In this document: one piece after another, positions 2,253 through 51,402 of the stretch | Layout of the letters: each line of letters opens with the position of its first letter | Position numbering within the stretch: the stretch's first letter is position 1 | From: Vibrio marisflavi CECT 7928 | GTDB lineage: Bacteria > Pseudomonadota > Gammaproteobacteria > Enterobacterales > Vibrionaceae | DNA: 64,000 nt | Direction: 5' to 3' | Assembly: GCF_921294215.1 (NCBI RefSeq) | Contig: NZ_CAKLDM010000001.1 | Coordinates: 930,001-994,000, forward strand | Program-made: the position numbers and the translations under genes | The notes under the pieces: model-generated | Database searches by the model: none | Told to the model about the DNA's origin: nothing | The model's input: only the letters and a program-made list of their open reading frames with translations

Positions 2253-2530
2253 CAATAGCCTCGCACACAACGACGATAGTTTATATACTTTAGATGTAGA
2301 GGCGCTAATTTTTCGATACAGAAATTAGTGCTTCTCCTCTTTTATAAATTAGTTCACCCGAGGCTAAACGGCTTAGAAAACATATCACGATATAAAAACT
2401 TCTGATAATAAGCACTATTCAATATGCATATGATGGCTTTACTAAGGCTTTAATAACGATCATTTGAAAGTACTAAAGTTTAATGAACTGCTAATAAGCC
2501 ACTTCAAAACTGATGGATATCAGTTCAAGT

Positions 2531-3639
2531 ATGAAAGGAATTTGCAATGATGTAACTGGCGATAGCTTTAGCTGCCTTTTAGAAAAAGTGAAACTGATTC
2601 TTAGATGAACGTAATAAATTAGACAACGAAACGGAACTTCTCATACTCACACTCTTTCTCCTAGTTTTTATAGGGCTCATTGTTTTCTTAACCATTGGCT
2701 CTTTGTTTGCAAAATTGAATAAGTGTTCCTTTTCGGAGGTTTTTTTGCTCGATCCCGAGTTCGGTTTACACAAACAAGCGTTGTTTTGGATTTCAGTACT
2801 CATTCCTGTTTATCTATTCGTATTTACTGGTCTATGTGTTTGGCGTGATTACTATCTTACTTTTTCTGAACAAGGGTTTGCAGTGTTCTTAAGTATCAGC
2901 AAACTTCCCTTAGGCTTACTTGCTTTGTCCTTACCGCTAGGCGTTTTGGTTACTCGTATACACTCGACTAAACAAACCGCTGAACAAATCAATCAAGCTA
3001 AGACTAACGAAAATAATAGACTTGAAGAGAAAAAAAAAAAGCGAAGAGGACTCCTATAAGGAAAAGCATATATCCCGATCTTTAGATGCTCTTGAGAAAA
3101 TAAAAGCTATAGCTGATCAGGAGCTAGATGCTGTAATTCGAAGCATATCTGGAGGGAAAACCAATATGGGAATCGCTCAAATACAGCTTATAAATACGCT
3201 AGACACTGTATTCATGGCTAACACAGTTGCAAACAAAGAAGTATTTCTGCCTAAGCCATTACCCAACAACTCAATTTCTGTAAAAAGTTGGCCTGTAAAA
3301 GATCTTATTCGTATAGCTAAACTAATTCAAGCAGCAGCTGGAGTTTGTGATAACATTTACATTTACTTAAGTAAAGACAAAGAGATAGGGAACCACCTTC
3401 TAAATGAGCACCTATACCTTATCAATGCATCTTGGTTAAGTTTCAATAAATCTATCGAAGTAATTAACTACTTGCTCCAAAGAGTAATAGCAAATTCATC
3501 AGCTACTTTCGATAATCAATCGAATCACATCTATATTTCCAAACAAGACCATAAAGAAATAGTAACGTTCACAGCAGCTTACGAACAGTGGCAGAAAGAA
3601 GATTGGCGAACATACTTTGGCTTTGATGTTAGACATTGA
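2531..3639 (+). pseudogene. membrane protein gene interrupted by two frame changes
   Basis: Three consecutive frames join into one sensible protein. ATG 2531 opens MKGICNDVTGDSFSCLLEKV and stops at TGA 2606-2608. The frame starting at 2598 continues FLDERNKLDNETELL into a membrane helix and stops at TAA 3057-3059. A third frame carries on from the A-run at 3030-3040 (eleven A) to 3639. Each step needs the reader to skip one base (+1). The joined product of about 368 residues would have three hydrophobic segments (around 2640-2710, 2780-2850 and 2875-2960) and a soluble helical C-terminal part of about 200 residues. The phrase LPLGLLALSLPLGVLVTRIHS recalls a hypothetical membrane family seen across proteobacteria, function unknown to me. 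A true pseudogene, polymerase slippage at the A-run, or sequence error are all possible. Confidence 0.65.
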
Positions 3640-3718
3640 GTTGGCTATTTAATCGAAGGCGACAAAGTGGCGGCGTTCGTCGGATTTAGCCAGCCAAGAC
3701 TCATTTTTTATATACAAT

Positions 3719-3748
3719 AACGCCCCTATCAAAGGGGCGTATTTTTTG
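3719..3748. terminator. terminator between the broken membrane gene and tdh
   Basis: AACGCCCCT and AGGGGCGTT-like arms (ACGCCCCT/AGGGGCGT) form a GC-rich stem with a short loop, followed by ATTTTTT on the + strand. It best fits the + gene ending at 3639 but also lies directly behind tdh on the minus strand, so it is probably shared. Confidence 0.8.
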
Positions 3749-4780
3749 TTATTCCCAGTCTAGGATAACTTTGCCGGAAGCTCCGCTACGCATGACGTCA
3801 AAGCCTTTTTGGAAGTCGTCAATTTTGTAGTGGTGAGTGATGATTGGCGTGAGATCTAAGCCAGATTGGATCAAACTTGCCATCTTGTACCAAGTTTCGA
3901 ACATTTCGCGGCCATAGATACCTTTGATAACTAGGCCTTTGAAAATCACTTGGTTCCAGTCTATGCCCATGTCTGATGGTGGAATACCTAGCAGTGCGAT
4001 TCGACCACCGTGGTTCATCGCTTTTAGCATTGAGCCGAATGCTGACTGGTTACCAGACATTTCTAGACCTACATCGAAGCCTTCCGTCATGCCAAGCTCG
4101 GTCATCACTTCTTCGATATTTTCCTTGGCCACATTGACTGCGCGAGTCACTCCCATTTCTCTAGCAAGGTCTAGTCGGTATTCGTTGACATCTGTAATGA
4201 CCACATGGCGAGCACCAACATGCTTAGCAACAGCCGCGGCCATAATACCAATAGGGCCAGCACCAGTGATTAGAACGTCTTCACCAACAAGGTCAAAAGA
4301 CAATGCTGTGTGAACCGCATTACCAAATGGGTCGAAGATAGATGCAAGATCATCAGAAATCTCTTCTGGGATCTTGAATGCGTTGAATGCTGGAATCACT
4401 AAGTATTCAGAAAAAGCACCAGTGCGGTTTACACCAACACCAATTGTGTTGCGGCATAGGTGTGTACGACCACCGCGACAGTTACGACAGTGCCCACAAG
4501 TGATATGGCCTTCACCAGAAACGCGATCACCAATTTCGAAACCACGTACTTCTTGACCAATCCCAACCACTTCACCTACATATTCATGCCCTACTACCAT
4601 AGGAACAGGAATTGTGTTTTGCGACCATTCATCCCAGTTGTAGATGTGAACATCTGTACCGCAGATTGCTGTCTTCTTAATCTTAATTAGCAGATCATTG
4701 TGGCCAAGCTCAGGCTTGTCCACTTCTGTCATCCAAATGCCTTCTTCAGGCTTTAACTTCGCTAGTGCTTTGATCTTCAT
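3749..4780 (-). CDS. tdh: L-threonine 3-dehydrogenase
   Basis: Zinc-dependent medium-chain dehydrogenase that oxidises L-threonine to 2-amino-3-ketobutyrate with NAD, in the cytoplasm. At 343 residues it is close to the E. coli enzyme (341). The catalytic zinc residues are in view: Cys40 in [10 protein letters not shown] and His65-Glu66 in GHEYVG. Four structural-zinc cysteines lie in [15 protein letters not shown] (about 97-111), and the nucleotide-binding turn is [10 protein letters not shown]. The gene follows kbl with stop and start sharing one base (TAATG), so the two are translationally coupled. The unstable intermediate is passed to Kbl. Identification is secure from the whole sequence. 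Confidence 0.97.
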
Positions 4781-12981: not shown

Positions 12982-14211
12982 ATGAAAAAATTAAGCCTTT
13001 TGGCAGCAGCGGTAGCAACAACTTTAGCAGCAGGTTCGGCATTTGCTGTTGATTTTACGGGTTATTTTAGAGCAGGAACAGGTGTCAGTGGATCAGGTAA
13101 CAGCGATATTGCCTATGACAAAAACGGGGTTGGTCGTTTAGGGAACGAAAGCGATAACTACTATGAATTTGGTTTCAATCAGGCGTTAGAAAAGAACGAT
13201 CAAAAATGGGAACTCATTTCAATGATTGCCGCTGGCGACGATGGCAACAACGCTGATGATGAAACCAATTGGACTAAAGTCTCTCAGTTTGCAATCAAAA
13301 CAAAAGGCTTAATTGGCAGCGATCCTGAGGCTGAAGTTTGGGCTGGCAAAATGTACTACCAACGCCATGATATCCACATCACCGATTTTTACTTTCTAAA
13401 TACTTCTGGCACAGGTGGCGGAATTCAAAACCTTTCTGTTGGAGATCAAAAGCTTTCCGTTGCCCTTGTACAAGATGCTGATACTGATAACTCGAGTAGC
13501 AGTTATATTTTCGATACTCGAGTAGCAGATATTAACTTATGGGAAGACGGCTCTTTGGAGCTCGGTATCGCTTACAACTTTGCGACCAATAAGTCTGGTT
13601 ATTCAGAAGCAGCCGACGATGGTGTATTCGCTACCGCCATATTTAACCAAAATATCGAAAGCGGATTTAACCAAACCGTACTCCAGTTCGGTAATAACGG
13701 ATATGGCCAACAAGCCGCCGACTGGGGCGCAGGTAAAGGTTACACACGTGGCACAAGTGCATACAACGGCAGCACTGGATACAGAGTATTAAACTGGGGT
13801 GTGGTTAGCCTGAGCAAAAAATGGGAATTTGGCCACCAGCTTGCCTATCTAGCCGGTAGCGATATTGGTGGATTAAACTCTAGCAATACCTACACTGGTC
13901 AAGATTTCGACATTCATCAATATTCTGCTGTAGTTCGTCCAATGTATCAATGGACCAACAATATGCGCACCATTGTTGAAGCTGGCTATAACGCAGGTAA
14001 AGAAATCAATACTGCTGGTACAGCCACACAAGACTTTGGCTTGGCCAAGTTCACTCTTGCTCAAGCTTGGGCTCTAGGTGAAGGCTTCTGGGCAAGGCCA
14101 GAGATAAGAGTTTATGGCTCTTACTTAGCTGATACTGAAAATAACAACACATTTGGCACCAATGACAACTCTGAATATGTATTTGGTATTCAAGCAGAAG
14201 CTTGGTGGTAA
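12982..14211 (+). CDS. LamB-type carbohydrate porin
   Basis: 409 residues with a signal peptide ending GSAFA and a mature start VDFTGYFRAG, which matches maltoporin (VDFHGYARSG). The C-terminus VFGIQAEAWW closely matches the LamB ending. The length fits an 18-stranded trimeric barrel for passive uptake of sugars across the outer membrane. The start is ATG 12982, with GGAG eight bases upstream; the longer frame lacks a ribosome site. Its place after the beta-glucoside PTS genes suggests it imports beta-glucosides or oligosaccharides, and the MalM-like gene behind it repeats the lamB-malM order of the maltose operon. Confidence 0.88.
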   Translation: MKKLSLLAAAVATTLAAGSAFAVDFTGYFRAGTGVSGSGNSDIAYDKNGVGRLGNESDNYYEFGFNQALEKNDQKWELISMIAAGDDGNNADDETNWTKVSQFAIKTKGLIGSDPEAEVWAGKMYYQRHDIHITDFYFLNTSGTGGGIQNLSVGDQKLSVALVQDADTDNSSSSYIFDTRVADINLWEDGSLELGIAYNFATNKSGYSEAADDGVFATAIFNQNIESGFNQTVLQFGNNGYGQQAADWGAGKGYTRGTSAYNGSTGYRVLNWGVVSLSKKWEFGHQLAYLAGSDIGGLNSSNTYTGQDFDIHQYSAVVRPMYQWTNNMRTIVEAGYNAGKEINTAGTATQDFGLAKFTLAQAWALGEGFWARPEIRVYGSYLADTENNNTFGTNDNSEYVFGIQAEAWW

Positions 14212-14253
14212 CCACAAATTCCACTGTCAAACGCCCACTGCTGGGCAATATTC

Positions 14254-14277
14254 AAGCCGGTGTTTGCCGGCTTTCTT
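14254..14277 (+). terminator. possible attenuating terminator between porin and MalM-like genes
   Basis: AAGCCGG and CCGGCTT form a 7-bp stem with loop TGTTTG, followed by TCTT. The weak T-tract suggests partial termination, which would lower expression of the lipoprotein relative to the porin, as often seen after abundant porin genes. Confidence 0.6.
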
Positions 14278-14315
14278 GCTCAACCAATAACGAGTAATTA
14301 AACCAAGGAATCACT

Positions 14316-15140
14316 ATGTATATACGCACTTTTTTCACCATGATTTGCCTTGTTTTAACTGGCTGCCAATCAGCGAAAGTAATAGAACAAAACTCGGCAC
14401 CGAATACGCAAGTTGTTCATTCAATCTCTGAATTACAAAGCGTTAAAATGACACTACCTAGCACCAAGTCAGTAAAGATTACTCCTCAATCGCAAATACT
14501 AGACAACAGCACAATAAATAGCCCTGTTGCCGTTTTTGAATTTCCTTCAAATAGAGGAGAGCTCAATATAACGATCACAAGCCAAATAGAAGATTCTGTA
14601 TTTTACCCCTCAGCAATTATCGTTGACAAGTCAGGCAAAGTAATTGAGCGCTACCAAGGTGATAACTTTAAGTATCTAAAACCGAGACTAGCGAAAGGCA
14701 ATCGAATATCAGCCAATATTAACTTCTTCCCACCAATGAATGAAGACACCCTTTATTTAGTCGTATATACCAACGAAGATGAGCAGAATAAAACCACCAC
14801 AGTCATAAACCCAGCCCGGTTGTTTGCTGAAGCCCATGGTAACTACTTACCACAGGTAAAAGACATCCCTGTTCCTCACGCAAAGGTTGGGGTTATTTCG
14901 GTCGAAATTGATGGCGCTCGTGCTAACCTACTCCAATCAACAAATACAATGACTTCTTCAGCTCCAGCAGCTTCACAAAAAGCATCTACAGAAAGAGCCA
15001 AGCAATATTACTACGCTCAAATCAAACAAGCGGTGAACAGTGATGATATACCCAGAGCTTTACAACTACTAGATGAGGCGAAAGCCAAGAATATATCAGG
15101 TGCTCAAGACGTATTTGTTAATGCTATAAACAATAAGTAA
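14316..15140 (+). CDS. MalM-like periplasmic lipoprotein
   Basis: 274 residues. The N-terminus ends with the lipobox LTGC (Cys17), so the product should be lipid-anchored. The core resembles MalM of the maltose operon: SPVAVFEFPSNRGELNITIT, then LYLVVYTNEDEQ, then NPARLFAEAHGNYLP, corresponding to MalM's PVAAYSVPANIGELTLTLTS and later segments. The C-terminus (about 215-274) is a helical extension resembling a single TPR-like unit (IPRALQLLDEAKAK). The role of MalM proteins is unclear; association with porins is supported by gene order. The ribosome site is AAGGA. Confidence 0.8.
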   Translation: MYIRTFFTMICLVLTGCQSAKVIEQNSAPNTQVVHSISELQSVKMTLPSTKSVKITPQSQILDNSTINSPVAVFEFPSNRGELNITITSQIEDSVFYPSAIIVDKSGKVIERYQGDNFKYLKPRLAKGNRISANINFFPPMNEDTLYLVVYTNEDEQNKTTTVINPARLFAEAHGNYLPQVKDIPVPHAKVGVISVEIDGARANLLQSTNTMTSSAPAASQKASTERAKQYYYAQIKQAVNSDDIPRALQLLDEAKAKNISGAQDVFVNAINNK

Positions 15141-15146
15141 AATAAT

Positions 15147-15180
15147 ATTGGTCAGTTATAAAAATGGCTGGCCAATTTCT
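15147..15180 (+). terminator. terminator after the MalM-like gene
   Basis: ATTGGTCAG and CTGGCCAAT pair over nine positions with one G-U, around a 12-base loop, followed by TTCT. It ends the beta-glucoside/porin cluster. Confidence 0.65.
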
Positions 15181-15473
15181 AATGCTATAATTTATCAACC
15201 CTTATTATTGTTTAAACCAATACCATAATAATCGCTTACCATCCTCCAAATTAATCATATATAGATCACAGCTATTATTGTTATTGATATTAATAACAGT
15301 CAATTAGGTATGACTTCTCATCAAAACATATTCTCAATCTCCTTCACATTTTAAGCACCCAATCACTTGATTAATTACATTGGGCATAAATAAAATGCAC
15401 TCGCTCTCAATCAAGGAGCAACAAATAACAATCCAAGAACTAATAAACAACATCAATTAAAAAGAATCTTCTT
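15181..15473 (+). other. AT-rich upstream region of the 1501-residue protein
   Basis: About 290 bases, strongly AT-rich, with no open frame of note. AAGGAG at about 15413 looks like a ribosome site but is about 55 bases from the ATG at 15474 and is followed by no start codon in a useful frame. The true start at 15474 has only a weak site. Confidence 0.45.
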
Positions 15474-18400
15474 ATGAAAAACAACGAAAGTATTGAAATA
15501 GGTACAATAAGAAAAACCGTTCAAAAACTGATAAGCAAGGTTATCAAAAACGAAGATTTACAGAAAAAAGAAATAAATTGCTTTGAATCACTGGTTTCAA
15601 GAAGACAGTTTATATCTGGCAGTGCTAAGTTCGCTGGTTTAGGTGCCCTCGCCTGCAGCGGTGTCGTACCAAGTGCTTGGGGAAGACTCAACTCAGATTA
15701 TTCAAGTAACCCAGCAGATTTTGGTATCACGCAAGCGGAAATGGCTGAGGAAGTGGCTGCCTATCAATTCAAATTTGGTACGGAACTCTTTACTCAAGTA
15801 GTACAGGACAAACCTTATAGTGCTTCACATAGCACCCAAGGAAAACATGTCGCACTGGAAAGCTTTAATGGTGGTCAATTAAAAATCCAAGCTATTGTTG
15901 ATCAAACAGATCCTACAGAATATGGATTTAATGATTACGACTCGAATTTCGGCACTACAGAAATGGCTCATCTAGCTGAAATGGAAAGTGGATGGGGAAT
16001 TGAAATACTTGAAAAGACGCAGGCTAGTATAGACTCTGATGAGCCTTCAGGAGGATATGATACAACTTTTATCACGCCCACTAAGTTTTCGAAAAAGTTA
16101 ACAGGTAAAGAAACTCTATATCGCCTGCATCATCCACTCCACAACACACTAGATTCCAGTGGTACTAAGATGCTGGGCGTTCAAGCTTTCCTAATAATAG
16201 GGACGTCATGCAACACTTCATATATGTGTATTCGCTGGCTTGAGGCAGAAGCTTCTGCGAAGTCTTCGTGTGATATGGACACAGTCGTCTCAACTGGCTG
16301 GGACATAGTTCCTCTTGAGCAAATCCTGCCTGTGAACCCTACTTTCCATTTTGTGAGAACTTATACCGATGTAACCGGTAAAGACTATATAACTTTTACT
16401 TCAAGTGACGATGGAAGCTCCAGCTTTTGGTATAACCATATATTGTGTATTGGCGGGTGGAAAGACATTCGTAGTTATCAAATGACTACTCAATTTTCAA
16501 AAAATGTGCCTATCAGTCAATCAACAGACGTTAATATCGGAAATATAGTCCAAATTAATGTTGGTGAAGACCCTTCAAACGATACCTTCTGGGTTAGCTT
16601 AAGAGGCATACCCGCCTATAAAACTATCCACTTTCCACCAAGCTCTACAATTAATACAGCTTCAAAAAATATCAAAGGAATCGAAGTTTATAGCGAAGTT
16701 CGGAGGCAAATTAATAAACCTTTTACAACTACTGAGCTGTACAAAGCCTTCCTACAAGAACAAAATCAGTTTTCGTTCACTGATTGCTATGAAATTCAAC
16801 GAACAAAAGCAACTTACCCTAACGGAAGAACTTCAGACGCATGCATTAAAATAGCGTTAATGAATCGAAAGCAAACGACTTCCTCTCCTGCTAAGTCCGA
16901 TATTATGCTTATCGCACATGACATGAATGATGGTACATTTATAGGCTACCAACGCTTTCACGTCCCAGAGAACTCTTTTGTTGCCGATCCCATTCTGCTC
17001 ACTGGCGGCATAAGCAAATATGGTGGGTTTACCTTCTTCGCAAAAGATACAAATAATTGTGTTTTAATGTATCGCCAATCAAATGGAACCGATAGCAACA
17101 CCCCATACTCCACACCGCTTGTCGATGGCCGCCTTACTCCACCCGGAACGAATGCAAGTAACGTAATACTTGGTGAATGCCCTGATTTTGCGAGCACAAA
17201 CCCAGATACCGGAGCCAAAAGCTACCGTGGTATCTTTATTGGCAACAAAGCCAACGCAATTTATTGCAACCCTAGATTCAACAACTCTTGTGACATGTTA
17301 ACGATAGAAGAAGAACTGCACTCTGGTTCAGTTACTAGTCGCGCTTATCTAAGCTCGAAAAAGCAGGTCGAAACCACATGGTATAAACAACCCATTAGCC
17401 AAAGCATCACATTGGAAGAAGCAGAAACCGAGAATACTGAATATCAAGAATGTTACCGAGCGACTATCTCTCCACTCAACTCCTATGGATATAGCGCTAT
17501 TGGTAAAGAAGGCCAGTATGTCGAGATTCGAAGCCCCTCTCCGCAACAAATTTTATTTAACAGCACTCAAGCCTTTGATGTCGACAGATCACAGGGTGCT
17601 CTTATACCTATCAGTGACAAAGGGGAGCCGATATCGATCATGGTCAAGGCCAACGATATTGCTTGTCGGCTTATGGTTCGAGTCGTTGATATCAGCACTT
17701 TAGAAAGAAGCAATGATAGCGCTTTGCTACGAGACGCTAATTCAGAAGGTGCTACCACAAAATGGTACAACCTGAATTTGGCCGAGCAAGCTAACCTGCG
17801 AATGGCCAGTAGCGAATACAATAGCAAGTCCAAGTTACAAGATGCTGGCAACAAGTGCGGTGTGACCTTTGTCGAAGCTAACGAGAACTCTCCTTCAGAG
17901 TCATACGACAGCCTAAGCGATCTCTATAAGCAGAGTGCAGACTCTATGAATGCTCTGAATACAGCAACTAATGATTCAGATAGCAATCTAAAAGGAACAT
18001 ATTACCAAGACGAACAGGCCAATAACCCACTGTATACCTTACATGTTTCTTCACTTGAGTCCCTATTGCAGTCAAGTGATAATTCCAAACTCGTCGTCGG
18101 CTTTCAAAAAGGAAAGTTTGTTCGTACTTCTGAAAGTAATCATGAAAGCATGCAGCTGCAAGGAATATTTGGTGATTTTATTCACTGGGTATCTGATGTA
18201 GTACATGCCATTGCAAATGTTATATCTCATCCAGCTGAAGCCATAAAAGATGGCTTCAAACTGGTGTTAGATGGCGCCAAAGTCGTCATTGAAATGTCGA
18301 AAAATCTACTCGAGCTTATCGGTCAAGCTGTCGACTCAGCAGTAAACTGGGTTGTAGAAACTTGTGAACAAGTAGCCGATATTGTTGCTTCTATTGTTAC

Positions 18401-19979
18401 TGCCGTAGTTAAAGTAGTGATGTGCATTGTACGCGCCATCATTATGATTGTGATGCTGTTTGTCCACATCAAAGACATCATTAGTACCATAAAAAGTGCT
18501 GAGCGGTTACATGACGATGTATTCGATATAGTAGAAGAGCAAACAATGCTTGCAAAACAAGAAGTCCATAACTACCGAGAAACAGTTGATTCTGCATTTG
18601 ACTCTCTAAAAGGCCTTGCCACTTATCAAAGTCACAATACAGGTGTAGGCAATACTGTTGCGACAGCTTTTTCTGAAACAATTAAAGTTGGTCAAGGTAT
18701 TATCGATGCATGCATTAATAACCCACTAGTAAACGACGTTATTATGCCCGCGATAAGCAAATTGACAGAAGCACTTTTAACTGTCGTTGATGGTGTATGG
18801 GATACCATCAGCCCAATTCTATTTAAAGATATCCAATTTAACGAATTCGGCAGTGTTGTAAACGTGATGATGACTCCTAAAACCTTTGAACCATCCTCTT
18901 CAAAGATGGAAGAATTTATTGCTTGGTTCATCGAAATCATTATCAAATTCGCATCTGATCCAACCGCCCTATGCGATATCGTATCGGAAGTCATGAACAA
19001 AGCAATCGAATGCTTTCAAGGCGCGGTAGACTGGACTTTTGACTTACTGGAATCAGCAATTGAATTAGCGGCGAATGCTTACCGTACAATTTGGACCCAA
19101 GCATCAATTACTTTTCAAATCCCCATAGTAACCAAATTCTTGAAGCTTTTTGATATCGATCTTTCTACTAATATCAGCTTCAAGCAATTAAACAGCGTAC
19201 TTCTTGGAACCGTTGCATGGTGCACAATGTATATTAAAGATGGTAAGAGCATCAAATCCTTACCTTCACTTAAAGATCCTGTTCAGTCGGGACTGCTACT
19301 TGGGGATGCCAGTGGCTGGAATGGATACACACTTGCCTTTGATATTTATGATGCGTTACTGAAAGTAATTGGCAACATAATGTGGCTAAACAGCCAACAA
19401 ATTAAAATCTTTGAAAAAACGACTGGGACCGAGTACAAAACACCACCATCACTTTTAAAACATTTTGATAGCGGCTACGAGTTTTTCTTGAGTTGTAACG
19501 TTGTAGTTAGCATTGTTCGGTGGGCCATTAGTGATGCTAAAAAAGTTAATAAACATAAAAAAGACGCAGCAACCAGCATCACCTTTGATATCCTAAAGTC
19601 AGTGATGGATATAACGAAGTTAACAGTCAAATATAAAGACTCGTATAAAGATATCAAGGACCCTGTATCTGATGTATTAGGAGCAGCAGGAATCGGCCTC
19701 TCAAATATGAAAGCCCTAGTGAAGACGACTTATTTTGTTCAAGACATTGCAGATTCTAATGTCACTCCACTAAGTTTCTTCAAATACTCTTCGAGTATTA
19801 TTCAGACCATCAATGGCGATCTAATATACGGAATCGACTTGTCTAACAAGAGTAACACTACGACTCCAGCAGATATTCAAAGCAGAATGCAGACTGGGTT
19901 TTACTCACAGAACATAGCACTCATGTTCGACATAACCTCAAAAGCCCTTAGCAACGACGACAACATAAACGGCGACTAA
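15474..19979 (+). CDS. giant protein with twin-arginine signal, function unknown
   Basis: 1501 residues. After a charged N-terminal extension of about 40 residues comes VSRRQFISGSAKFAGLGALA, a Tat-type signal (Ser-Arg-Arg-x-Phe-Ile, Arg43-Arg44), then a hydrophobic core and PSAWG. It therefore looks exported folded across the inner membrane. Residues about 60-880 are rich in strand-like, aromatic and cysteine-containing segments. From about 895 (GIFGDFIHWVSDVVHAIANV) the sequence turns into long amphipathic helices, with a strongly hydrophobic stretch near 970-1000 (VVKVVMCIVRAIIMIVMLFV). The remainder is helical. The gene stands alone between terminators, has AT-rich flanks, and I do not recognise a named family. 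A membrane-active or structural surface role is possible but unproven. Confidence 0.85.
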   Translation: MKNNESIEIGTIRKTVQKLISKVIKNEDLQKKEINCFESLVSRRQFISGSAKFAGLGALACSGVVPSAWGRLNSDYSSNPADFGITQAEMAEEVAAYQFKFGTELFTQVVQDKPYSASHSTQGKHVALESFNGGQLKIQAIVDQTDPTEYGFNDYDSNFGTTEMAHLAEMESGWGIEILEKTQASIDSDEPSGGYDTTFITPTKFSKKLTGKETLYRLHHPLHNTLDSSGTKMLGVQAFLIIGTSCNTSYMCIRWLEAEASAKSSCDMDTVVSTGWDIVPLEQILPVNPTFHFVRTYTDVTGKDYITFTSSDDGSSSFWYNHILCIGGWKDIRSYQMTTQFSKNVPISQSTDVNIGNIVQINVGEDPSNDTFWVSLRGIPAYKTIHFPPSSTINTASKNIKGIEVYSEVRRQINKPFTTTELYKAFLQEQNQFSFTDCYEIQRTKATYPNGRTSDACIKIALMNRKQTTSSPAKSDIMLIAHDMNDGTFIGYQRFHVPENSFVADPILLTGGISKYGGFTFFAKDTNNCVLMYRQSNGTDSNTPYSTPLVDGRLTPPGTNASNVILGECPDFASTNPDTGAKSYRGIFIGNKANAIYCNPRFNNSCDMLTIEEELHSGSVTSRAYLSSKKQVETTWYKQPISQSITLEEAETENTEYQECYRATISPLNSYGYSAIGKEGQYVEIRSPSPQQILFNSTQAFDVDRSQGALIPISDKGEPISIMVKANDIACRLMVRVVDISTLERSNDSALLRDANSEGATTKWYNLNLAEQANLRMASSEYNSKSKLQDAGNKCGVTFVEANENSPSESYDSLSDLYKQSADSMNALNTATNDSDSNLKGTYYQDEQANNPLYTLHVSSLESLLQSSDNSKLVVGFQKGKFVRTSESNHESMQLQGIFGDFIHWVSDVVHAIANVISHPAEAIKDGFKLVLDGAKVVIEMSKNLLELIGQAVDSAVNWVVETCEQVADIVASIVTAVVKVVMCIVRAIIMIVMLFVHIKDIISTIKSAERLHDDVFDIVEEQTMLAKQEVHNYRETVDSAFDSLKGLATYQSHNTGVGNTVATAFSETIKVGQGIIDACINNPLVNDVIMPAISKLTEALLTVVDGVWDTISPILFKDIQFNEFGSVVNVMMTPKTFEPSSSKMEEFIAWFIEIIIKFASDPTALCDIVSEVMNKAIECFQGAVDWTFDLLESAIELAANAYRTIWTQASITFQIPIVTKFLKLFDIDLSTNISFKQLNSVLLGTVAWCTMYIKDGKSIKSLPSLKDPVQSGLLLGDASGWNGYTLAFDIYDALLKVIGNIMWLNSQQIKIFEKTTGTEYKTPPSLLKHFDSGYEFFLSCNVVVSIVRWAISDAKKVNKHKKDAATSITFDILKSVMDITKLTVKYKDSYKDIKDPVSDVLGAAGIGLSNMKALVKTTYFVQDIADSNVTPLSFFKYSSSIIQTINGDLIYGIDLSNKSNTTTPADIQSRMQTGFYSQNIALMFDITSKALSNDDNINGD

Positions 19980-19986
19980 AACAATA

Positions 19987-20020
19987 AAAAAAGGATCAGC
20001 GCAATGCTGATCCTTTCCAC
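19987..20020. terminator. terminator shared by the giant gene and maeA
   Basis: AAGGATCAGC and GCTGATCCTT form a perfect 10-bp stem with a 5-base loop. On the minus strand it is followed by a run of T, which suits maeA. On the plus strand it lies just after the giant gene's stop codon. Confidence 0.88.
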
Positions 20021-20042
20021 TTTAAAAGAGCTTAACGTTATC

Positions 20043-21758
20043 TTAAACCCTGCGATAAGGCAGATATACAGGCTCCCACATATGCGAAGCAAGTTCTTGG
20101 TGAATGTCTTTATCACGCAAACTGCTATCAGCATCTGTTTCTCGTAAGCGCTCTAAAATTTCTGTCGCCACTTTTAGCGTCACTTCTTTTAGCTCGCTGA
20201 TTCTTGGGAACACGCACCCCATAGCTAAGTCTTCTTCACTAACATGCTCAGCCAAAGCGAAAGATGCCGTAGTAAACATATCCATGGTGATCTTTTTCAC
20301 TTCACCCGCAATCGCAGCTAAACCAACGCCCGGGAAGATAAATACATTGTTACCTTGGCCGATTCGGTAAGTATTGCCCTCAAATTCGATGTCATCGAAA
20401 GGGCTACCAGTAGCAACAATCGCTTTACCATTAGTCCAACGGTAGAGATCTTCAGGCAAGGCTTCACAATTTGATGTTGGGTTAGAAAGCGGGAAGATAA
20501 TTGGCCTTTCTGTGTGCGTATGCATTTTCTCTACATGAGCTTGAGTAAATGCACCGCCAACACCACTACAACCTAGTAATACAGTAACAGGAACATTGTT
20601 TATAAGATCTTGGAGGCTCGCTTTGCCCTCTTCCTCTAATTGCCAATCTTGCGTCATTTCCCAAGACTTAGCATAGCGTTTCTTATACTCATCCAATCCT
20701 TCTCGGTTATCAAAAACAACGCCACGAGAATCTAATGTGAATATGCGTGCACGCGCTTCTTCATGAGAAAGGCCTTCTTTGAGTAGACCAGCAAAGATTT
20801 GGTCCGCAACACCTACACCACCAGCGCCAGCACCATATACCGCGTATACTTGGTCAGCTAGATTTTCGTGCTTGATCTTAGTTGCATTGATGATGCCCGC
20901 GAGAACAACAGAACCAGTACCTTGAATGTCATCATTGAAAGAAGGAATGACATCTTCGTATTCTGTTAGGTTGTCAAAGGCATTCGATTTACTGAAGTCT
21001 TCCCACTGCAGTACTGCTTTCGGGAAGTGACGCTTAGTTTGCTCAACAAACTTAGCAATAAATGCACGATATTCTTCACCGCGAATACGTTTTTTCGGTA
21101 CACCCAAATACATAGGGTCAGAAAGTAAATCAGCGTTGTCTGTACCAATATCTAGTGCAACTGGCAAACATTGAGTAGGGTGAATACCAGCCCCTAACGT
21201 GTAAAGTGACAACTTACCGATTGGGATACCCATGCCGCCAACACCTTGGTCACCAAGCCCTAGAATACCTTGACTATCAGTTACAACGATAATCTTGATA
21301 TCTTGGTTTGGAAAGTGGCGTGCCATTTCACCCATGTTGTCTACGTTTTCTTCAGTTACGTAAAGGCCACGAGCTTTTTGATAACGGTGGCTAAATTCCT
21401 GACAAGCTTTACCCACTGTTGGGGTATAAATAATCGGCGTCATTTCCTCAACATAACGATTAATCAATGCATAGAACAATGTTTCGTTTCTATCTTGCAG
21501 GGATCTTAAGAATAGGTATTTTTCGATGTCCGTTGACGCATTTTTAAAGCCTTGATAAACACGCTTAATTTGATCTTCAAACGTTTGAACTCTAGGAGGA
21601 AGTAGACCGTTTAAATTGAACAGCTCTCTTTCTTCGTAACTAAATGCTGTACTTTTATTAAGGTTTCGATCATTTAGTAGATCGGTTCCTGAAAGTGATA
21701 CCGGACGAAACTCTTTGCCTTCCGCATCCTTCCAACGTAAGTATTTTCCTACAGTCAT
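20043..21758 (-). CDS. maeA: NAD-dependent malic enzyme
   Basis: 571-residue cytoplasmic enzyme that oxidatively decarboxylates malate to pyruvate with NAD. Motifs typical of the large malic enzymes are present: MTPIIYTPTVGKACQ, VVTDSQGILGLGDQGVGGMG (substrate and metal region), FNDDIQGTGSVVLAG, and the nucleotide-binding VYGAGAGGVGVADQ. The length is close to E. coli MaeA (565). I start at ATG 21758 (MTVGKYLRWKD) because GGAG stands five bases upstream; the longer open frame adds a 27-residue tail without a site. It is monocistronic and feeds pyruvate and NADH to the respiratory chain. Confidence 0.95.
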   Translation of the reverse strand: MTVGKYLRWKDAEGKEFRPVSLSGTDLLNDRNLNKSTAFSYEERELFNLNGLLPPRVQTFEDQIKRVYQGFKNASTDIEKYLFLRSLQDRNETLFYALINRYVEEMTPIIYTPTVGKACQEFSHRYQKARGLYVTEENVDNMGEMARHFPNQDIKIIVVTDSQGILGLGDQGVGGMGIPIGKLSLYTLGAGIHPTQCLPVALDIGTDNADLLSDPMYLGVPKKRIRGEEYRAFIAKFVEQTKRHFPKAVLQWEDFSKSNAFDNLTEYEDVIPSFNDDIQGTGSVVLAGIINATKIKHENLADQVYAVYGAGAGGVGVADQIFAGLLKEGLSHEEARARIFTLDSRGVVFDNREGLDEYKKRYAKSWEMTQDWQLEEEGKASLQDLINNVPVTVLLGCSGVGGAFTQAHVEKMHTHTERPIIFPLSNPTSNCEALPEDLYRWTNGKAIVATGSPFDDIEFEGNTYRIGQGNNVFIFPGVGLAAIAGEVKKITMDMFTTASFALAEHVSEEDLAMGCVFPRISELKEVTLKVATEILERLRETDADSSLRDKDIHQELASHMWEPVYLPYRRV

Positions 21759-28743: not shown

Positions 28744-28752
28744 GTTTTGATC

Positions 28753-30096
28753 ATGAATATTAAAACAAAACAAATTTTAATTGCGCTAGCTCTAACATCC
28801 GTGTCTTTTGTTTCGGCTGCTAGAGGAGTGCTCAATCTTGCGCAAGGATACGCAAGTACGATTAACTTGAAAGAAGATGTCTCTTCTGTCTTTATCGCTT
28901 CCCCAAAAGTTGCTGATTACCAAGTTATCGATAAACGCAAAGTCGTTGTCTATGGAAAAAAAGTGGGACACACAACGATATTAGTTTTTGGCAAATCTGG
29001 CAACACACTCGCTAGTGACAATATCATCGTCAATAAAAGCTTAACTAAGATACAGCAATATTTGGCACTTAAGTTTCCAAACGACAATGTGAATGTCTTC
29101 AATGTTGATGGCCAAGTCGTACTAAGCGGTACTGTTTCAACTGAAACTGAAAAGAACAAGATTGAAAATGTTGTTGGCACACTGCTAAAACGAAATGCAA
29201 AAGAACACACATTTACGTTCTCCGACGGGAAAAGTAAAACAAGTGAACAACTTGATTATATGACTCGTAAAAGCTTCGAAGGTATTGTAAACAACCTCGA
29301 AGTCGCCGCAACAAAGCAAGTTAACGTAAAGCTATCCATAGCTGAAGTCTCTCAATCCTTTATGGAAGAGATCGGATTCAAGTACGGAAGTAGTTCTGAC
29401 AGCCCCGGGCAGTTTATTAGCTCAATAAACGGTTTCAATGCATCCAATTTGCTTTCAATCATTAACGCAAGCCACGATGACACTGTAGGTAAAGTTCTGG
29501 CTGAGCCAAACCTGTCGGTGATTTCTGGAGAAAGTGCCAACTTCTTGGTTGGTGGTCAGCTACCTGTTGTTACTGTCATTAACAATATGACTGACGTTCA
29601 GTACAAAGACTATGGTATTCAGCTAAACCTGACGGCAAAAGTACAAAAAGACAGCAAAATCAGGCTAACTCTGGCACCTGAAGTGAGCTCGCTAGATACC
29701 ACTTACGAAAACCAAACCTATAACCTACCGGCACTTAAAACACGCCGTGAGAAAACAACAGTAGAACTCGGTGACGGGCAAAGCTTTGTCCTTGGTGGCT
29801 TGTTAAGTACAGAAGAAATTGAAAGCTTAAGTAAAGTACCTCTATTAGGAGACATCCCAATTCTAGGTACGTTATTCCGTGATGCCGCAACCCAGAAAAA
29901 GAAAACAGAGCTTGTCATTGTTGCAACAGTAAACCTAGTGAAGCCAATTAAACCTTCGCAGGTACAGCTTCCTACAATGCAGAGAACAACGACATTAAGC
30001 CGATTTTTTGGGCTTAGTAACAAAAGCAGCAGCTATCCAAAAGCGAGTGAGAAGTGGGCGAATGAGCTGCTTGCAACCGGAGGCTTCAAGAAATGA
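28753..30096 (+). CDS. rcpA: RcpA/CpaC outer-membrane secretin
   Basis: 447 residues with a signal peptide (about 1-24), an N-terminal domain of the pilus-secretin type with a BON-like segment (VDGQVVLSGTVSTETEKN), and a C-terminal secretin domain with VGGQLPVVTVIN, GIQLNLTAKV, GQSFVLGGLLSTEE and the final VIVATVNLVKP. It should form the outer-membrane ring through which the Flp pilus passes. ATG 28753 follows AGGTTTTGATC. It overlaps rcpB by four bases. Confidence 0.93.
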   Translation: MNIKTKQILIALALTSVSFVSAARGVLNLAQGYASTINLKEDVSSVFIASPKVADYQVIDKRKVVVYGKKVGHTTILVFGKSGNTLASDNIIVNKSLTKIQQYLALKFPNDNVNVFNVDGQVVLSGTVSTETEKNKIENVVGTLLKRNAKEHTFTFSDGKSKTSEQLDYMTRKSFEGIVNNLEVAATKQVNVKLSIAEVSQSFMEEIGFKYGSSSDSPGQFISSINGFNASNLLSIINASHDDTVGKVLAEPNLSVISGESANFLVGGQLPVVTVINNMTDVQYKDYGIQLNLTAKVQKDSKIRLTLAPEVSSLDTTYENQTYNLPALKTRREKTTVELGDGQSFVLGGLLSTEEIESLSKVPLLGDIPILGTLFRDAATQKKKTELVIVATVNLVKPIKPSQVQLPTMQRTTTLSRFFGLSNKSSSYPKASEKWANELLATGGFKK

Positions 30097-30584
30097 TCAA
30101 CTGGAAATTGCTTGCACTTATTCCTGTCATCGCTGTGACAGGCTGTGCTGAACATGTCAATGAACGTTCTGGTAGCAACGTAGATGTCTACCCAGTTACA
30201 TACTCTTTAGCATTGACTAAGCCATCACCATTTTTAAACAAGTTTATCGACTCTCACTTCAGTGTAATCCTTGAGCACGGCGTTAGTATCAAATGGTATT
30301 CGTACACGGGTAAAGCCTGGGCCAAACAGATTCGCAAAGAGCTAACCAAGAAAGGCGTAGATTCTAGCTCTATTCATCTAGAAGCTGGAATGAACAAAGA
30401 TGACGATCGTTTCGACATCTCTATTTCAACCACTAATTACACGACTCAAGTAACTCAATGTGGTTATTACGGAGTTGGGGACGTAGAAGATACCCCTTCT
30501 GGGTGCTATGTAGAGAATAGTCGTTGGGCTTCAATGGTTAACCCGCAGAAAATGTTGACCAAGACGTCTCCTGACGCCAAGTAA
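30093..30584 (+). CDS. rcpB: RcpB/CpaD-like pilus lipoprotein
   Basis: 163 residues beginning with a lipoprotein signal (AVTGC, Cys18). The mature part has charged helices and a Cys pair (TQCGYYG and SGCYVEN) that could form a disulfide. Its position between the secretin and TadZ, and its size, match RcpB/CpaD proteins, which stabilise or gate the secretin. The start overlaps the rcpA stop (ATGA), so translation is coupled. Confidence 0.82.
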   Translation: MINWKLLALIPVIAVTGCAEHVNERSGSNVDVYPVTYSLALTKPSPFLNKFIDSHFSVILEHGVSIKWYSYTGKAWAKQIRKELTKKGVDSSSIHLEAGMNKDDDRFDISISTTNYTTQVTQCGYYGVGDVEDTPSGCYVENSRWASMVNPQKMLTKTSPDAK

Positions 30585-30595
30585 GAGTAATTATT

Positions 30596-31825
30596 ATGTT
30601 TGATTTAGTTGATGTTATAAAAAGTCACTCCGACAAGCCCGATAGTGAAAACTTGCATACGATGGTGTTATTTCATCAGAGTGAAGAGTGCAAAAGCTTT
30701 GTCGAAGAAGCATGTCGATTCGAAGGTTTAGAGCTACCGAAGACTCTAGTGAATAACGATAAGAATATTCATGAACACGCTCGAGAAAACAGCTCTTGCA
30801 CAATTATTATTGAGCTAACCCGAAGCCAAAACGTTAGCGAAGACATGCAGCGTATCTCTCATCTACTGCCAAACAACACTTCCGTTATTGTTGTAGGCAC
30901 TGAAGGGACAATATGCACAATACGTAACTTAAAAACCTTAGGTTTTCACTACCTATTTTGGCCAGCATGCCAGGAGGAGTTTGTAGAGTTACTGCATAAC
31001 TTACGCCCAACACAGGCTAACAACGTAAAGCTAAGCCCTACTCGTAAGGCAAAAAATATCGCTATATTGGGAGCGAAAGGTGGCGTTGGCACTTCGTTCT
31101 TCGCCTCTCAATTGGCACAAAACCTAGCAGGCAAACACAATAGCTCATGCGTTGTAGCCGACTATAACTTTACTGGCGGCAATCTAGACATACTGCTGAA
31201 TGTCGAAAACTTTAGCAAAAGAAATGTGAGTTCTGCTGAGGTTTCTACAACGCTAGATACAACATACGCTATGAGCATGACGCAAGATGTCAACAAGCTG
31301 CTTTCGTTGCTAAGTATTGAGTCCGACACATTAAATGAGCCGGAAATGCGAGATATTTTGCGCACGGTGATTAATGCTTTGTCCACTCAGTTCAACTTCA
31401 TTGTAGAAGATTTTTCAAGCACGTCATCTTGCAAAGAACAGCTAGAGTACATTGCAAAAAATGCCGATATTGTCTTGCTAGTCATGGATAAAACCGTTTC
31501 TAGTCTGCGAGAAGCAAAACGTCTATTAGACGCTTTGCAGAGCCACAACTCTGTCGCAAGGCACATTACTATTCTCAACAATACTCGCCCAGAGAAGGCC
31601 GCGACGGTTTCAGATCAAGAAGTAAAATCCTTCTTGGAAGAAAGTCCTGATATTACGTGTGCTTACGAATCGGGGTTAAGCCAGGCCATTCTAAATGCTA
31701 AAGCGCTTAACACTCAAAGATTACAGGTCAATAACACTGTTGAGCAACTTACGTCACTGGTATTGGGTAAGCCATATACAAAACGTTCTGCAATCAAATT
31801 AAAGCAATGGTTGAAGAAGGCGTAA
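30596..31825 (+). CDS. tadZ: TadZ/CpaE localisation ATPase
   Basis: 409 residues: a receiver-like N-terminal half (about 20-140) without clear phosphorylation residues, and a MinD/ParA-like ATPase from about 150 with the deviant Walker A GAKGGVGTSFF (about 158-168) and VVADYNFTGGNLD as the switch region. TadZ marks the polar assembly site of the Tad machinery. It lies 11 bases after rcpB and 3 before tadA. Confidence 0.92.
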   Translation: MFDLVDVIKSHSDKPDSENLHTMVLFHQSEECKSFVEEACRFEGLELPKTLVNNDKNIHEHARENSSCTIIIELTRSQNVSEDMQRISHLLPNNTSVIVVGTEGTICTIRNLKTLGFHYLFWPACQEEFVELLHNLRPTQANNVKLSPTRKAKNIAILGAKGGVGTSFFASQLAQNLAGKHNSSCVVADYNFTGGNLDILLNVENFSKRNVSSAEVSTTLDTTYAMSMTQDVNKLLSLLSIESDTLNEPEMRDILRTVINALSTQFNFIVEDFSSTSSCKEQLEYIAKNADIVLLVMDKTVSSLREAKRLLDALQSHNSVARHITILNNTRPEKAATVSDQEVKSFLEESPDITCAYESGLSQAILNAKALNTQRLQVNNTVEQLTSLVLGKPYTKRSAIKLKQWLKKA

Positions 31826-31828
31826 CGT

Positions 31829-33109
31829 ATGTACAGCAATAAGACTATATATATCCACATTCGTGAGAAGATATTTGAAGCTCTTGAACCTGAGTCCATT
31901 AATTCTCTTTCGAAAGATCAACTAACTAGCCAGCTCGCGAAAGCTGTCGATCTGCTTATCGAAAGGGAAGACTATTCCGTAGCCTCGGTGATCCGCTCTG
32001 AGTTTGTAAAGAATTTGGTCGACGAATTACATGGACTTGGCCCACTGCAAGTATTGCTCGATGATGAGTCTATTAACGACATCATGATCAATGGCCATGA
32101 CAATGTGTTTGTTGAGCGCAACGGTATTGTTGAAGAGTCAGCGGTTAAGTTTATCGACGAAAGTCAGCTACAAAATATAGCCAAACGTATCGTTACCCAA
32201 GTAGGACGTCGTGTTGACGACGCTTCTCCCACATGTGATGCGCGCCTTGCAGACGGCAGCCGTGTCAATGTAGTGATACCACCTATAGCCATTGATGGCA
32301 CTTGTATCTCTATTCGTAAATTCAAAAAACACGCCATGGGCTTAGATCAAATGGCTGAGTTTGGTTCCATGAGCAGCCAAGTCGCGCAAGTGCTAAAAAT
32401 TGCTGCTCGATGTCGCTTGAATATCATTATTTCTGGCGGTACCGGCTCGGGTAAAACGACCTTGTTGAATGCCCTATCGCAGTACGTGTCTGAAAAAGAA
32501 AGAATTATTACTATTGAAGATGCAGCCGAACTCAAACTACAACAACCTCATGTCGCACGACTAGAGACGCGAACTGAAGGTATCGAAGGCAATGGCGCGG
32601 TAAATCAACGAGACCTAGTCATCAATGCTCTACGTATGCGTCCTGACCGTATAATTGTCGGTGAGTGTCGTGGCGCTGAAGCATTCGAGATGTTGCAAGC
32701 GATGAACACCGGCCACGATGGTTCAATGTCTACTCTGCACGCAAATACTCCACGTGATGCCCTTGCTCGTGTTGAGTCTATGGTGATGATGGCAACTTCT
32801 AACCTTCCGTTAGAAGCAATACGCCGCTCAGTAGTCAGCGCAGTCGATCTGATCGTGCAGATAAGCCGACTTCACGATGGAACTCGTAAAGTAATGAGTG
32901 TCTCTGAAGTTGTTGGACTTGAAGGCTATGCGATTGTTTTAGAAGAAATTTTCAAGTTCCATCACAGCGGTCAGGTGCAAAACGGTAAAGTAGTGGGCAA
33001 CTTTACTACGGCAGGTTTGCCGCGACGTTCAGTAATCGCCGAGAAAGCAAGTTTTTACGGGCTTCAGGCGCAATTGAACGGCTTATTTGGTGCGATGGAG
33101 ACGATGTGA
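31829..33109 (+). CDS. tadA: TadA/CpaF secretion ATPase
   Basis: 426-residue hexameric ATPase of the GspE superfamily that powers pilus extension, and in some systems retraction. Walker A is [12 protein letters not shown] (about 201), the Asp box is [15 protein letters not shown], Walker B is [15 protein letters not shown], and the His box is [12 protein letters not shown]. An N-terminal domain with [19 protein letters not shown] is typical for TadA/VirB11. The ribosome site GAAGAAGG precedes ATG 31829. Confidence 0.96.
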
Positions 33110-45068: not shown

Positions 45069-46541
45069 TTAAAACATAAAGTTAAATACTGCTTGAGCAA
45101 AGATACCGAAGGCTAATGTGCCAATTGCACAAATCGCGATAACTAAAGCTGGACCAAACGCTGTAGGCTCTGCTGCTACAGTTCCGTCAGTGTTTACTAC
45201 TACATTTACTGATTCATCTGCTTCGCTAGACTCTTGCTTAGCAAATAGTGCTAGCAATATTCTTAGGTAGTAGAAGATCGACACAGCTGAACCAAGTACT
45301 GCGAGTAGTACAAAGCCTAGGTGGCCATTTGCAAGTACATCTGAGAACAAGAAGAACTTAGCAAAGAAACCTGCTGTTGGCGGAATACCTGCTAGGGACA
45401 ATACTGAGATTGCCATAGCAACACCTGCTAGAGGGAAACGACGGCCTAAGCCACGGTATCCATCCAATTCACCCGTTGGGTTGTATTTACCAAGCATAGT
45501 AATCACAGCAAACGCGACCATATTCATAATGGCATAGCTAAAGCCGTAATACGCCGCTGCGCGAACAGAATGTGCCATTGATAGTGAATCATTTGGAATC
45601 ACACTAGCCAGCGCCATCATTACGTAACCAAACTGCGCAACAGATGAATAAGCAAGGATACGCTTAGCGTTTGTTTGACGTAGTGCCAACAAGTTACCAA
45701 AGATAATGCTTAGGAACACAAGAGCCCAAAGAACACTTTCTAGGTGATACCAAAGCGGCTCAATCTGTAGCGCAAAGCTGATAAGGAATGTCAGCATAGC
45801 AATTTTAGCGATACTACCGATGAACGCCATCACAGGCGCAGGAGATGCTTGGAATACGTCAGCTAACCAAGTGTGGAACGGAGCAAGTGCCAACTCAAAA
45901 GCAATACCAACCAGCAAGAAAATGATACCCATGATCGCTAGTAGTGGAATCGCGTGAGCATTTCCAAGTGCTTCTGGGATCTGGTCAATCACTAGAGTGC
46001 CTGTACCGAAGTAAATCAGTGCAATACCAAACATAAAGAACGCAGCTGCAACCGTTGCTGTGATTGCATACTTAATCGCACCTTCAACAGCACCTTTGCG
46101 GCGTGGGTTCCACGCAACAAGAGCGAACATAGGGATCGCCACTGTTTCCATACCAATGAATGCTGCAAGCAAATTCACTGATGAAACAAGTAGGAAAGTA
46201 CCCAATACTGCAATCAAGACGAGCCCATAGAACTCTTCATCAACGTGCTTGTTCAGTGCTGGATAGTTTTGAGCCAATAAAATTGTCGCTAAACCACCTG
46301 CTGCAAACAGCTCGAAAGCAACCAAAACAAAGTGGTTAATTTCGACGAAGTTTTCGATTCGGTGATCACTACCAAACAGTGTACCTACTTGGAACATCGT
46401 TGCCAGTAAGACAACGATAGAGCCAATGTAAGGGATTTGATTGTTCTTTTTGCCCGGCAATACGCCGAGCAATAAAACGATTAACGCACCAATACCAACA
46501 AAAGCATAAGGCAATACATAAGTTAAATCATGGAGTGACAT
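45069..46541 (-). CDS. nuoN: NADH-quinone oxidoreductase subunit N
   Basis: 490 residues, 14 predicted membrane helices, antiporter-like subunit of the complex I membrane arm that carries protons. The central region LAPFHTWLADVFQASPAPVM has the invariant HxWxPD-type motif, and FVSLAGIP-type text (SVLSLAGIPPTAGFFAKFF) is typical of NuoN. Last gene of the operon, overlapping nuoM by 14 bases. Confidence 0.96.
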   Translation of the reverse strand: MSLHDLTYVLPYAFVGIGALIVLLLGVLPGKKNNQIPYIGSIVVLLATMFQVGTLFGSDHRIENFVEINHFVLVAFELFAAGGLATILLAQNYPALNKHVDEEFYGLVLIAVLGTFLLVSSVNLLAAFIGMETVAIPMFALVAWNPRRKGAVEGAIKYAITATVAAAFFMFGIALIYFGTGTLVIDQIPEALGNAHAIPLLAIMGIIFLLVGIAFELALAPFHTWLADVFQASPAPVMAFIGSIAKIAMLTFLISFALQIEPLWYHLESVLWALVFLSIIFGNLLALRQTNAKRILAYSSVAQFGYVMMALASVIPNDSLSMAHSVRAAAYYGFSYAIMNMVAFAVITMLGKYNPTGELDGYRGLGRRFPLAGVAMAISVLSLAGIPPTAGFFAKFFLFSDVLANGHLGFVLLAVLGSAVSIFYYLRILLALFAKQESSEADESVNVVVNTDGTVAAEPTAFGPALVIAICAIGTLAFGIFAQAVFNFMF

Positions 46542-48036: not shown

Positions 48037-48052
48037 AAATAAACCTTATTGA

Positions 48053-50795: not shown

Positions 50796-50811
50796 TATTT
50801 ACCTCGCCAAA

Positions 50812-51345: not shown

Positions 51346-51402
51346 AATTCTTCTCGATAAAAGAGCTTTCTCGATCAATTCCGCATATTGAATACAGAAT
51401 GG

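Follow-up and report, generated by a model that had tools for sequence, protein, structure and literature searches.

A family of giant proteins with extended Tat-type leaders in two Vibrio species and its possible link to a second TatABC translocase

Results

Gene and protein at the locus

The window is a stretch of 64,000 nucleotides from Vibrio marisflavi CECT 7928 (contig NZ_CAKLDM010000001.1, positions 930,001 to 994,000). An open reading frame on its forward strand (15474..19979) encodes a giant Tat-leader protein of 1501 amino acids, with a precursor of 166 kDa and a mass of 158 kDa from residue 71. All features of the gene given below lie on the same strand. As the initial annotation had it, an Arg-Arg pair at residues 43 and 44 (S42-R43-R44-Q-F-I, residues 42–47, 15597..15614) lies behind an extension of about 40 residues, many of them charged. 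This n-region (residues 1–41, 15474..15596) carries a conserved LR...K-E-x-x-C-F pattern. The h/c region (residues 48–70, 15615..15683) ends in P-S-A-W-G, and our guess is that the putative cleavage site follows AWG. Residues 71–850 (15684..18023), the first mature half, have a low helical moment and are probably strand-rich. By hydrophobic moment, residues 901–1005 (18174..18488) form a strongly amphipathic helical stretch, in which a hydrophobic segment (residues 981–999, 18414..18470) lies directly ahead of the invariant D1001. Within the mature part, conservation is highest in residues 1201–1280 (19074..19313; 30%), which read T-x-QIP ... LF-x-DLS ... W-x3-Y ... GKS. A suspected kinship of this QIP...DLS block with large fungal and bacterial proteins found no backing in the searches.

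The upstream neighbor on the same strand (14316..15140) belongs to the MalM family (PF07148), and no link between it and the giant was found. The gene had been described as lying between terminators. This did not hold, as the four terminator-like sites in 14500–21000 are all on the reverse strand and fewer than in shuffled sequence (mean 5.8). The strong intrinsic-terminator-like hairpin among them (19988..20018, reverse strand) lies downstream of the convergent gene, to which it would belong. No Rfam matches were found within 14000–21000.

A family of nine giants

Nine full-length members of the family were identified, six in the V. marisflavi genome (G000) and three in a second Vibrio (G028, matched to V. 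sinus S4M6). The frame in the window is thus more than chance, since each of its eight homologues is an open frame of the same length without stops. The family is present in 2/227 genomes of the genus in a scan that scored at most two candidates per genome. Some genus-wide scans scored at most two or three candidates per genome, and another, in 61 genomes, covered almost every candidate. The mature parts measure 156.8–166.9 kDa, and nine regions within them show mean identities of 16–30%. The first, probably strand-rich half does not regularly vary more than the second, which counts against the reading favored below. Invariant columns number 27 and include E104, D1001, Y1253 and S1259. The giant genes stand at dispersed loci, and their flanks share no promoter or terminal repeat, only matches of 12–17 bp. 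Profile self-comparison gave no internal repeats, with probabilities of at most 0.8% for the first half and 7.5% for the helical one.

Leader

All nine members have a leader of about 70 residues in which an n-region of about 40 residues precedes the Arg-Arg motif. The twin arginine is present in 9/9, as S-R-R-x-F-[ILV] in eight and as S-K-R-R-C-L in L021. The leader is the best-conserved part of the protein (mean identity 39% and 54%, versus 16–30% for the mature regions), and the 39% is the mean pairwise identity of n-region residues 11–41 over 36 pairs. The h-region is weakly hydrophobic, with no 19-residue leader window as high as 1.6 in 8/9 members and one at 1.71 in L021. The putative signal-peptidase c-region, sought as an A-x-A-like end, reads A-W-G or A-W-A in 7/9 and S-W-G in L020; it is indistinct in L021. 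The full leader occurs on the six and three family genes across 226 genomes of the genus, with up to 26 candidates scored per genome. Seven further leader matches (E 8.6e-5 to 0.0093) cover only part of the model, four of them within positions 36–68 and the other three at 6–51, 19–60 and 23–52.

Short curated Tat leader models often miss leaders. Here they stayed below cut-off (PF10518, best E 0.049, 1/9 members; TIGR01409, best E 0.16, 2/9). Assignment of the giants to the Tat type is supported by sequence: the universal twin arginine and the conserved leader speak for it, the curated models against it.

Mature part

Helix-rich character of the second half, proposed from the window protein, was confirmed. 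The mean 100-degree hydrophobic moment is 0.48 at residues 901–1005, compared with 0.18 in residues 71–850 and 0.20 in 300 shuffles (z 8.3), and the amphipathic stretch exceeds shuffles in 9/9 members (z 3.4 to 9.2). All nine thus retain the Arg-Arg motif together with a helical second half. Signs of a strand-rich first half are indirect, namely composition, propensities and low helical moment. The hydrophobic stretch placed near residues 970–1000 is real in the window protein, where the peak at 981–999 (Kyte-Doolittle 2.76) is reached by 1% of 200 whole-protein shuffles. As a family feature it failed, since it rises above shuffles (≤3%) in 4/9 members and not in the other five, L021 and L022 being lowest. 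The mature protein is perhaps membrane-active, combining a probably strand-rich half with an amphipathic helical half; the initial annotation had suggested that it could be a membrane-active or surface structure protein.

Database searches

The window protein had no convincing match in Pfam, NCBIfam, PADLOC or PHROGs, nor did the nine members in Pfam, NCBIfam or PHROGs. The best Pfam scores, read as helix composition, were to Baculo_PEP_C (E 3.6e-4; E no worse than 1 in 3/9 members) and Orthopox_F14 (E 0.0013, 1/9). PDB sequences gave no convincing match, mostly designed helix bundles at E 0.13 or worse; this also applies to an alpha-helical pore-forming toxin as a candidate class. The only sequence returned from a set of 5.8 billion proteins was P0002, an 897-amino-acid piece of the window protein whose C-terminus differs. 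Even the alignment containing the other eight members failed to retrieve them, and absence from that set is therefore weak evidence. In scans reaching close relatives only, named genome contigs gave no match to the window protein, the A2 patterns found two V. sinus loci in such contigs, and viral contigs gave no match to A2. Plasmid and phage records did not match the window protein either. The giants are a lineage-restricted orphan family with no recognizable relative in the libraries searched.

A second TatABC beside one giant

The initial annotation saw no maturation partner nearby. That stands for the window as far as it was read and fails for the family: paralogue L020 is followed after 49 bp, on the same strand, by a second tatA-tatB-tatC. 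The six-copy family and the second TatABC both lie outside what the window shows. Such an adjoining tat operon was seen for 1/9 giants, and not for the other five V. marisflavi genes or the three V. sinus genes. The gap between L020 and tatABC2 holds no terminator-like site on the genes' strand; a weak 5-pair one lies just inside the 3' end of the L020 coding region. No promoter-like site was found on the tatABC2 strand in 2300–4500 of the L020 locus. This arrangement hints that TatABC2 is reserved for giants.

In a TatC tree of 31 full-length rows, consisting of the 15 best-scoring fetched and the rows of a second scan rather than all 226 genomes, TatC2 of V. marisflavi and its V. sinus counterpart form their own clade with support 100/100 and a long stem. 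TatC proteins at E ≤1e-120 to TatC2, a cut-off set after an earlier scan whose next best match was 1.4e-116, occur in 2/226 genomes, both of which carry giants. The list of TatC2-specific residues was drawn against a comparison set without four other second copies (G133, G184, G213, G134). The 19.9 kb read around the second tat set of V. sinus (L070) contain no giant gene, and the TatB of this set scores just below the Pfam cut-off (19.8 versus 21 bits). The two carrier species are mutually closest by main TatC (90.9%, 31 rows compared). Co-occurrence of giants and TatC2 may therefore be one ancestral event, and probably is.

Two TatC matches were found in 12 genomes, seven of which have two full copies. 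Three of the 12 are false doubles, with one gene in two frames (G019, G065, G132); the second match of G249 is just 58 residues long, and in G007 one match was located. Surroundings of the second copy were read in 6/7 genomes, namely the two carriers, G184, G213, G134 and G133, the last truncated where its contig stops. The stretch read for G194 (L075) contains the ubiB-side TatC copy, not the other one. Reading recognized no Tat-like cargo beside the second TatC of G134 or G133.

Discussion

The explanation we favor, at not quite even chances, is that the giants, about 160 kDa in size with six here and three in a close relative, are exported folded by Tat, that TatABC2 is specialized for them, and that the n-region is their tag. 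The giants would cross by the twin-arginine route in the folded state, and the conserved n-region of about 40 residues would act as an address tag read by TatABC2. With less confidence, the strand-rich half may bind a partner after export. The amphipathic helical half may stay folded while in the cytoplasm and so encounter a membrane or partner only once it has been exported. Targets would, also with less confidence, differ among the diverged paralogues. Tat cargo size is given as "up to 150 kDa" in the part of the literature cited (PMC6708511). On this best reading, the giants would be Tat cargo at or above that figure, probably with a private translocase of their own to recognize the n-region. 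A stricter version, in which an orthogonal TatABC2 line exports only the 160 kDa family via the tag and beyond the usual size range, is tentative and falls somewhat short of an even chance.

Alternatively, the giants use ordinary housekeeping TatABC, and the second set, shared by common descent, serves another purpose or is a back-up. We regard this as a real but rather doubtful possibility. Housekeeping TatABC is present in V. marisflavi and main TatC in V. sinus, the carriers are close by TatC identity, and the second V. sinus set lies apart from the giants. However, this explanation accounts neither for conservation of the n-region beyond the Arg-Arg motif nor for a giant gene directly ahead of tatABC. 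Conservation of the leader could also come from recognition by a chaperone instead of a private translocase.

A tape-measure-like protein, an envelope-spanning structural or spacer protein with its helical half in long bundles, is improbable. The helical half does score against PHROG tape-measure models (E 3.3e-4 for the window protein, best 1.9e-5 among nine members). These scores are weak and come from several different tape-measure families, as expected from helix composition. Furthermore, 50,697 phage records held no match to the window protein, viral contigs held none to the A2 patterns, and reading recognized no phage genes beside the nine giant genes. Tat leaders are not known from tape-measure proteins.

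Slightly more improbable still is an exported cofactor-dependent or hydrolytic enzyme of new fold that uses Tat because it acquires a cofactor in the cytoplasm. The source as cited (PMC6708511) names the insertion of cofactors as a common ground for Tat use, and the invariant E104, D1001, Y1253 and S1259 could conceivably be catalytic. Against this, the 27 invariant columns contain no Cys or His, the one Cys kept in 8/9 members (Cys36) lies in the leader, a single His (His911) is likewise kept in 8/9, and no maturation gene was recognized by reading beside the nine genes. A cytoplasmic protein with an incidental Arg-Arg, which the long charged n-region and the sub-threshold Tat models would allow, is very improbable given that S-R-R-x-F, the weakly hydrophobic stretch and the short A-W-G/A end are conserved in proteins whose mature regions average 16–30% identity.

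What selects Tat cargo beyond Arg-Arg and how large a folded cargo can be are open questions. With two TatABC sets and six candidates of about 160 kDa that have a conserved, extended leader in common, this genome would lend itself to tests of both.

Among known systems, the tape-measure proteins of phage tails (such as PHROG 305) resemble the giants by weak scores in the helical half, and the giants differ from them in leader, first half and gene context. P0003 is a family of Tat-like orphans of about 1000 amino acids in 4/226 Vibrio genomes, large like the giants and with a leader of the form [KR]R-x-F. A P0003 gene in G184 sits just behind a second tatABC (tatA and tatB named by reading). 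P0003 lacks the long n-region, and profile comparison aligned 28 leader columns with the giants at 0.3% probability; kinship beyond the leader was not supported. Only one of the four P0003 genomes has two TatC matches, an observation that tells against pairing of giants with TatABC2. Redox Tat substrates with TorA/TorD-type chaperones, as described in the part of the source cited (PMC6708511), share with the giants a conserved twin-arginine leader and a possible leader-binding partner. The giants, unlike these, have no recognized chaperone gene, lack invariant Cys or His in their mature regions, and instead show an extra Tat. In Bacillus subtilis, PhoD is the one known cargo of TatAdCd in the passages cited (PMC6708511, PMC3827258). 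There the translocase is not the three-part TatABC seen here, where the candidate cargo is a family of otherwise unknown proteins of about 160 kDa at dispersed loci, just 1/6 V. marisflavi giant genes is linked to the extra translocase, and cargo specificity is putative. Common to PhoD and the giant L020, as far as those passages describe the former, is a Tat substrate gene, a putative one for L020, that adjoins its own extra translocase.

The giant gene and its surroundings

The initial annotation placed a giant Tat-type gene at 15474-19979, with an Arg-Arg pair at residues 43-44 of the product and a strongly hydrophobic stretch near residues 970-1000. The frame, on the plus strand, is indeed uninterrupted and encodes 1501 amino acids, the arginines lie within S-R-R-Q-F-I, and the hydrophobic stretch occupies residues 981-999. 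A terminator scan of 14500-21000 returned four sites, all on the minus strand, the strong one at 20018-19988. The gene upstream encodes a MalM-family protein; the other neighbors (PTS, phospho-glucosidase, maltoporin-like and malic enzyme genes) were named from reading ORFs, not from database search. The MalM-type gene has a match in 11/12 genomes examined, and no giant was found beside it within 1.5 kb flanks at six loci (five other genomes and a second V. marisflavi copy).

Two other clusters in the window were recognized. Secretin, ParA-like and T2SSE ATPase genes at 28747-33106 (+) form a Tad-pilus-like cluster, "Tad" being assigned by reading. Subunits of respiratory complex I (NADH dehydrogenase) are encoded in a minus-strand cluster at 46531-58455 (5/10 scanned proteins); such a cluster is unusual for a Vibrio.

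A nine-member family in two species

Searching the V. marisflavi genome recovered six genes that share one build, among them the window gene. A first search of 61 genomes found one other carrier, G028, with three genes; G028 corresponds to Vibrio sinus S4M6, with which it shares one protein letter for letter. Family matches were found in 2/227 genomes sampled from the genus, 2/247 from the taxonomic family (the same two), 2/369 from the class and 1/160 from the phylum (the V. marisflavi genome), in samples that overlap one another and with the best two or three candidates per genome scored. The class sample matches were the V. marisflavi genome and G458, in which the match is confined to profile positions 32-70, the leader. 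The family rows compared are 1478-1583 amino acids long, identity to the window protein is 17-43% among the eight other members, and flanking genes, by reading, vary between loci. In the family tree the V. marisflavi paralogue L020 pairs with L023 of V. sinus and the window gene with the paralogue L017, while members L021 and L024 sit on long branches and their placement is unsure.

Conservation is highest in the leader. Across all 36 pairs, residues 11-41 average 39% identity and residues 42-70 average 54%, compared with 16-30% in nine regions of the mature part. R13, K32, E33, F37, S42, R44, L59 and G63 are invariant in 9/9 leaders; the weak cases, L021 and L024, are 28-29% and 19-52% identical to the window leader. 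Cys36 (window 15579-15581), inside the n-region motif K-E-x-x-C-F, is kept in 8/9 giants. When the leader model was run against 226 genus genomes, with at most 26 candidates per genome scored, the nine giants all reached E 4e-24 or better, and another seven matches (E 8.6e-5 to 0.0093) cover the model only partially. Together the giants form an orphan family of nine whose extended Tat leader is conserved. Signal peptides generally diverge more quickly than the mature parts they precede. In the giants this order is reversed, a pattern that calls for a putative partner to read the n-region.

The mature part

No match above cut-off was found for the window protein and its family in Pfam and NCBIfam, the window protein had no match in PADLOC, and PDB sequences gave no convincing one. 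PHROG tape-measure models gave weak scores over the helical half, and these were taken as helix composition. An amphipathic signal at 901-1005 exceeds shuffles in 9/9 members (z 3.4-9.2), whereas a hydrophobic segment matched by ≤3% of shuffles is present in 4/9 and absent from 5/9. The family feature is therefore an amphipathic helical region, not a membrane-spanning helix. No Cys or His occurs among the 27 invariant columns. A family-wide "variable head" rule was rejected, as two pairs show opposite patterns: L020 and L023 are 79% identical at the C-end and 51% over residues 71-850, whereas the window protein and L017 are 27% and 45% identical, respectively. With the residue aligned to position 71 taken as the first, the mature proteins have masses of 156.8-166.9 kDa. 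After export, the giants may act through a half that binds and an amphipathic half that could be membrane-active.

A divergent TatABC in both carrier species

Downstream (3') of L020, on the same strand, lie tatA (74 aa), tatB (115 aa) and tatC (242 aa), all three above the Pfam cut-off. The gaps are 49 bp (giant-tatA), 2 bp (tatA-tatB) and 24 bp (tatB-tatC). Between L020 and tatA no terminator-like site was found on this strand; a single weak site of 5 pairs lies just within the 3' end of the L020 coding region. The second V. sinus set (locus L070) consists of tatA, a tatB-like gene and tatC, its TatB scoring 19.8 bits, just below the cut-off of 21. No giant gene was found near this set (19.9 kb read). 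Two large Hsp70-like genes, identified by reading, occupy L070 3906-8774, about 2.5 kb from these tat genes.

PF00902 matches twice in 12/226 genus genomes, both carriers among them, and on inspection seven of the 12 have two full TatC copies. In G019, G065 and G132 tatC lies in two frames, reflecting frameshifts or sequencing errors. The second TatCs of the two carriers share 89% identity and, among 31 TatC rows, group in a 100/100 clade on a long stem. At E≤1e-120, a cut-off picked after seeing the next best match (1.4e-116, 76% identity), TatC2 matches only the two carriers among 226 genomes. Compared with 25 further TatC rows, a set that excludes four other second copies, the pair stands apart at 21 positions, each with at most two letters in that set; at position 64 the pair has Ser where Asp is otherwise invariant. 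Between the two species TatB2 is 56% and TatA2 73% identical, versus 77% and 83% for the housekeeping proteins.

The initial finding is sounder and larger than first described, comprising a nine-member family and a divergent TatABC, both in the same two species. TatABC2 would be a translocase private to the giants, and this is the best-supported mechanism. Its basis is one gene linkage and one co-occurrence, the latter probably a single event. In main TatC the closest match of each species among the 31 rows is the other (90.9%; next 86.3%), and a single ancestral event can therefore account for the co-occurrence.

Comparison with other extra Tat genes

Extra TatC as such is already known, since a 2013 survey reported extra tatC loci in 39 species, about 5% (PMC3827258). 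Its Table 2, as shown, lists marine gammaproteobacteria including Colwellia and Pseudoalteromonas but not Vibrio, and the text of the survey has no word that starts with "Vibrio". Literature on two Tat systems in Vibrio, duplicated TatC or giant Tat substrates, as far as accessible, held nothing further on point.

Within the genus, a second tatABC in G184 precedes the gene of a 997-aa orphan whose leader reads K-R-S-F-L. The family of this orphan (P0003) is present in 4/226 genomes, of which only G184 has two TatC matches; nothing detectable is shared with the giants beyond the leader. P0003 proteins (L071 4313-7306) are Tat-like orphans of about 1000 aa, a family separate from the giants, and G183 has two such genes close together. 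In G213 (L072 4842-8263) an amidohydrolase with a Tat-like leader has a second tatB-tatC downstream. No Tat-like cargo was found beside the extra tat genes at the V. sinus and G134 loci read. The G184 and G213 cases therefore indicate that extra Tat genes beside Tat-like cargo recur in the genus, the cargo differing.
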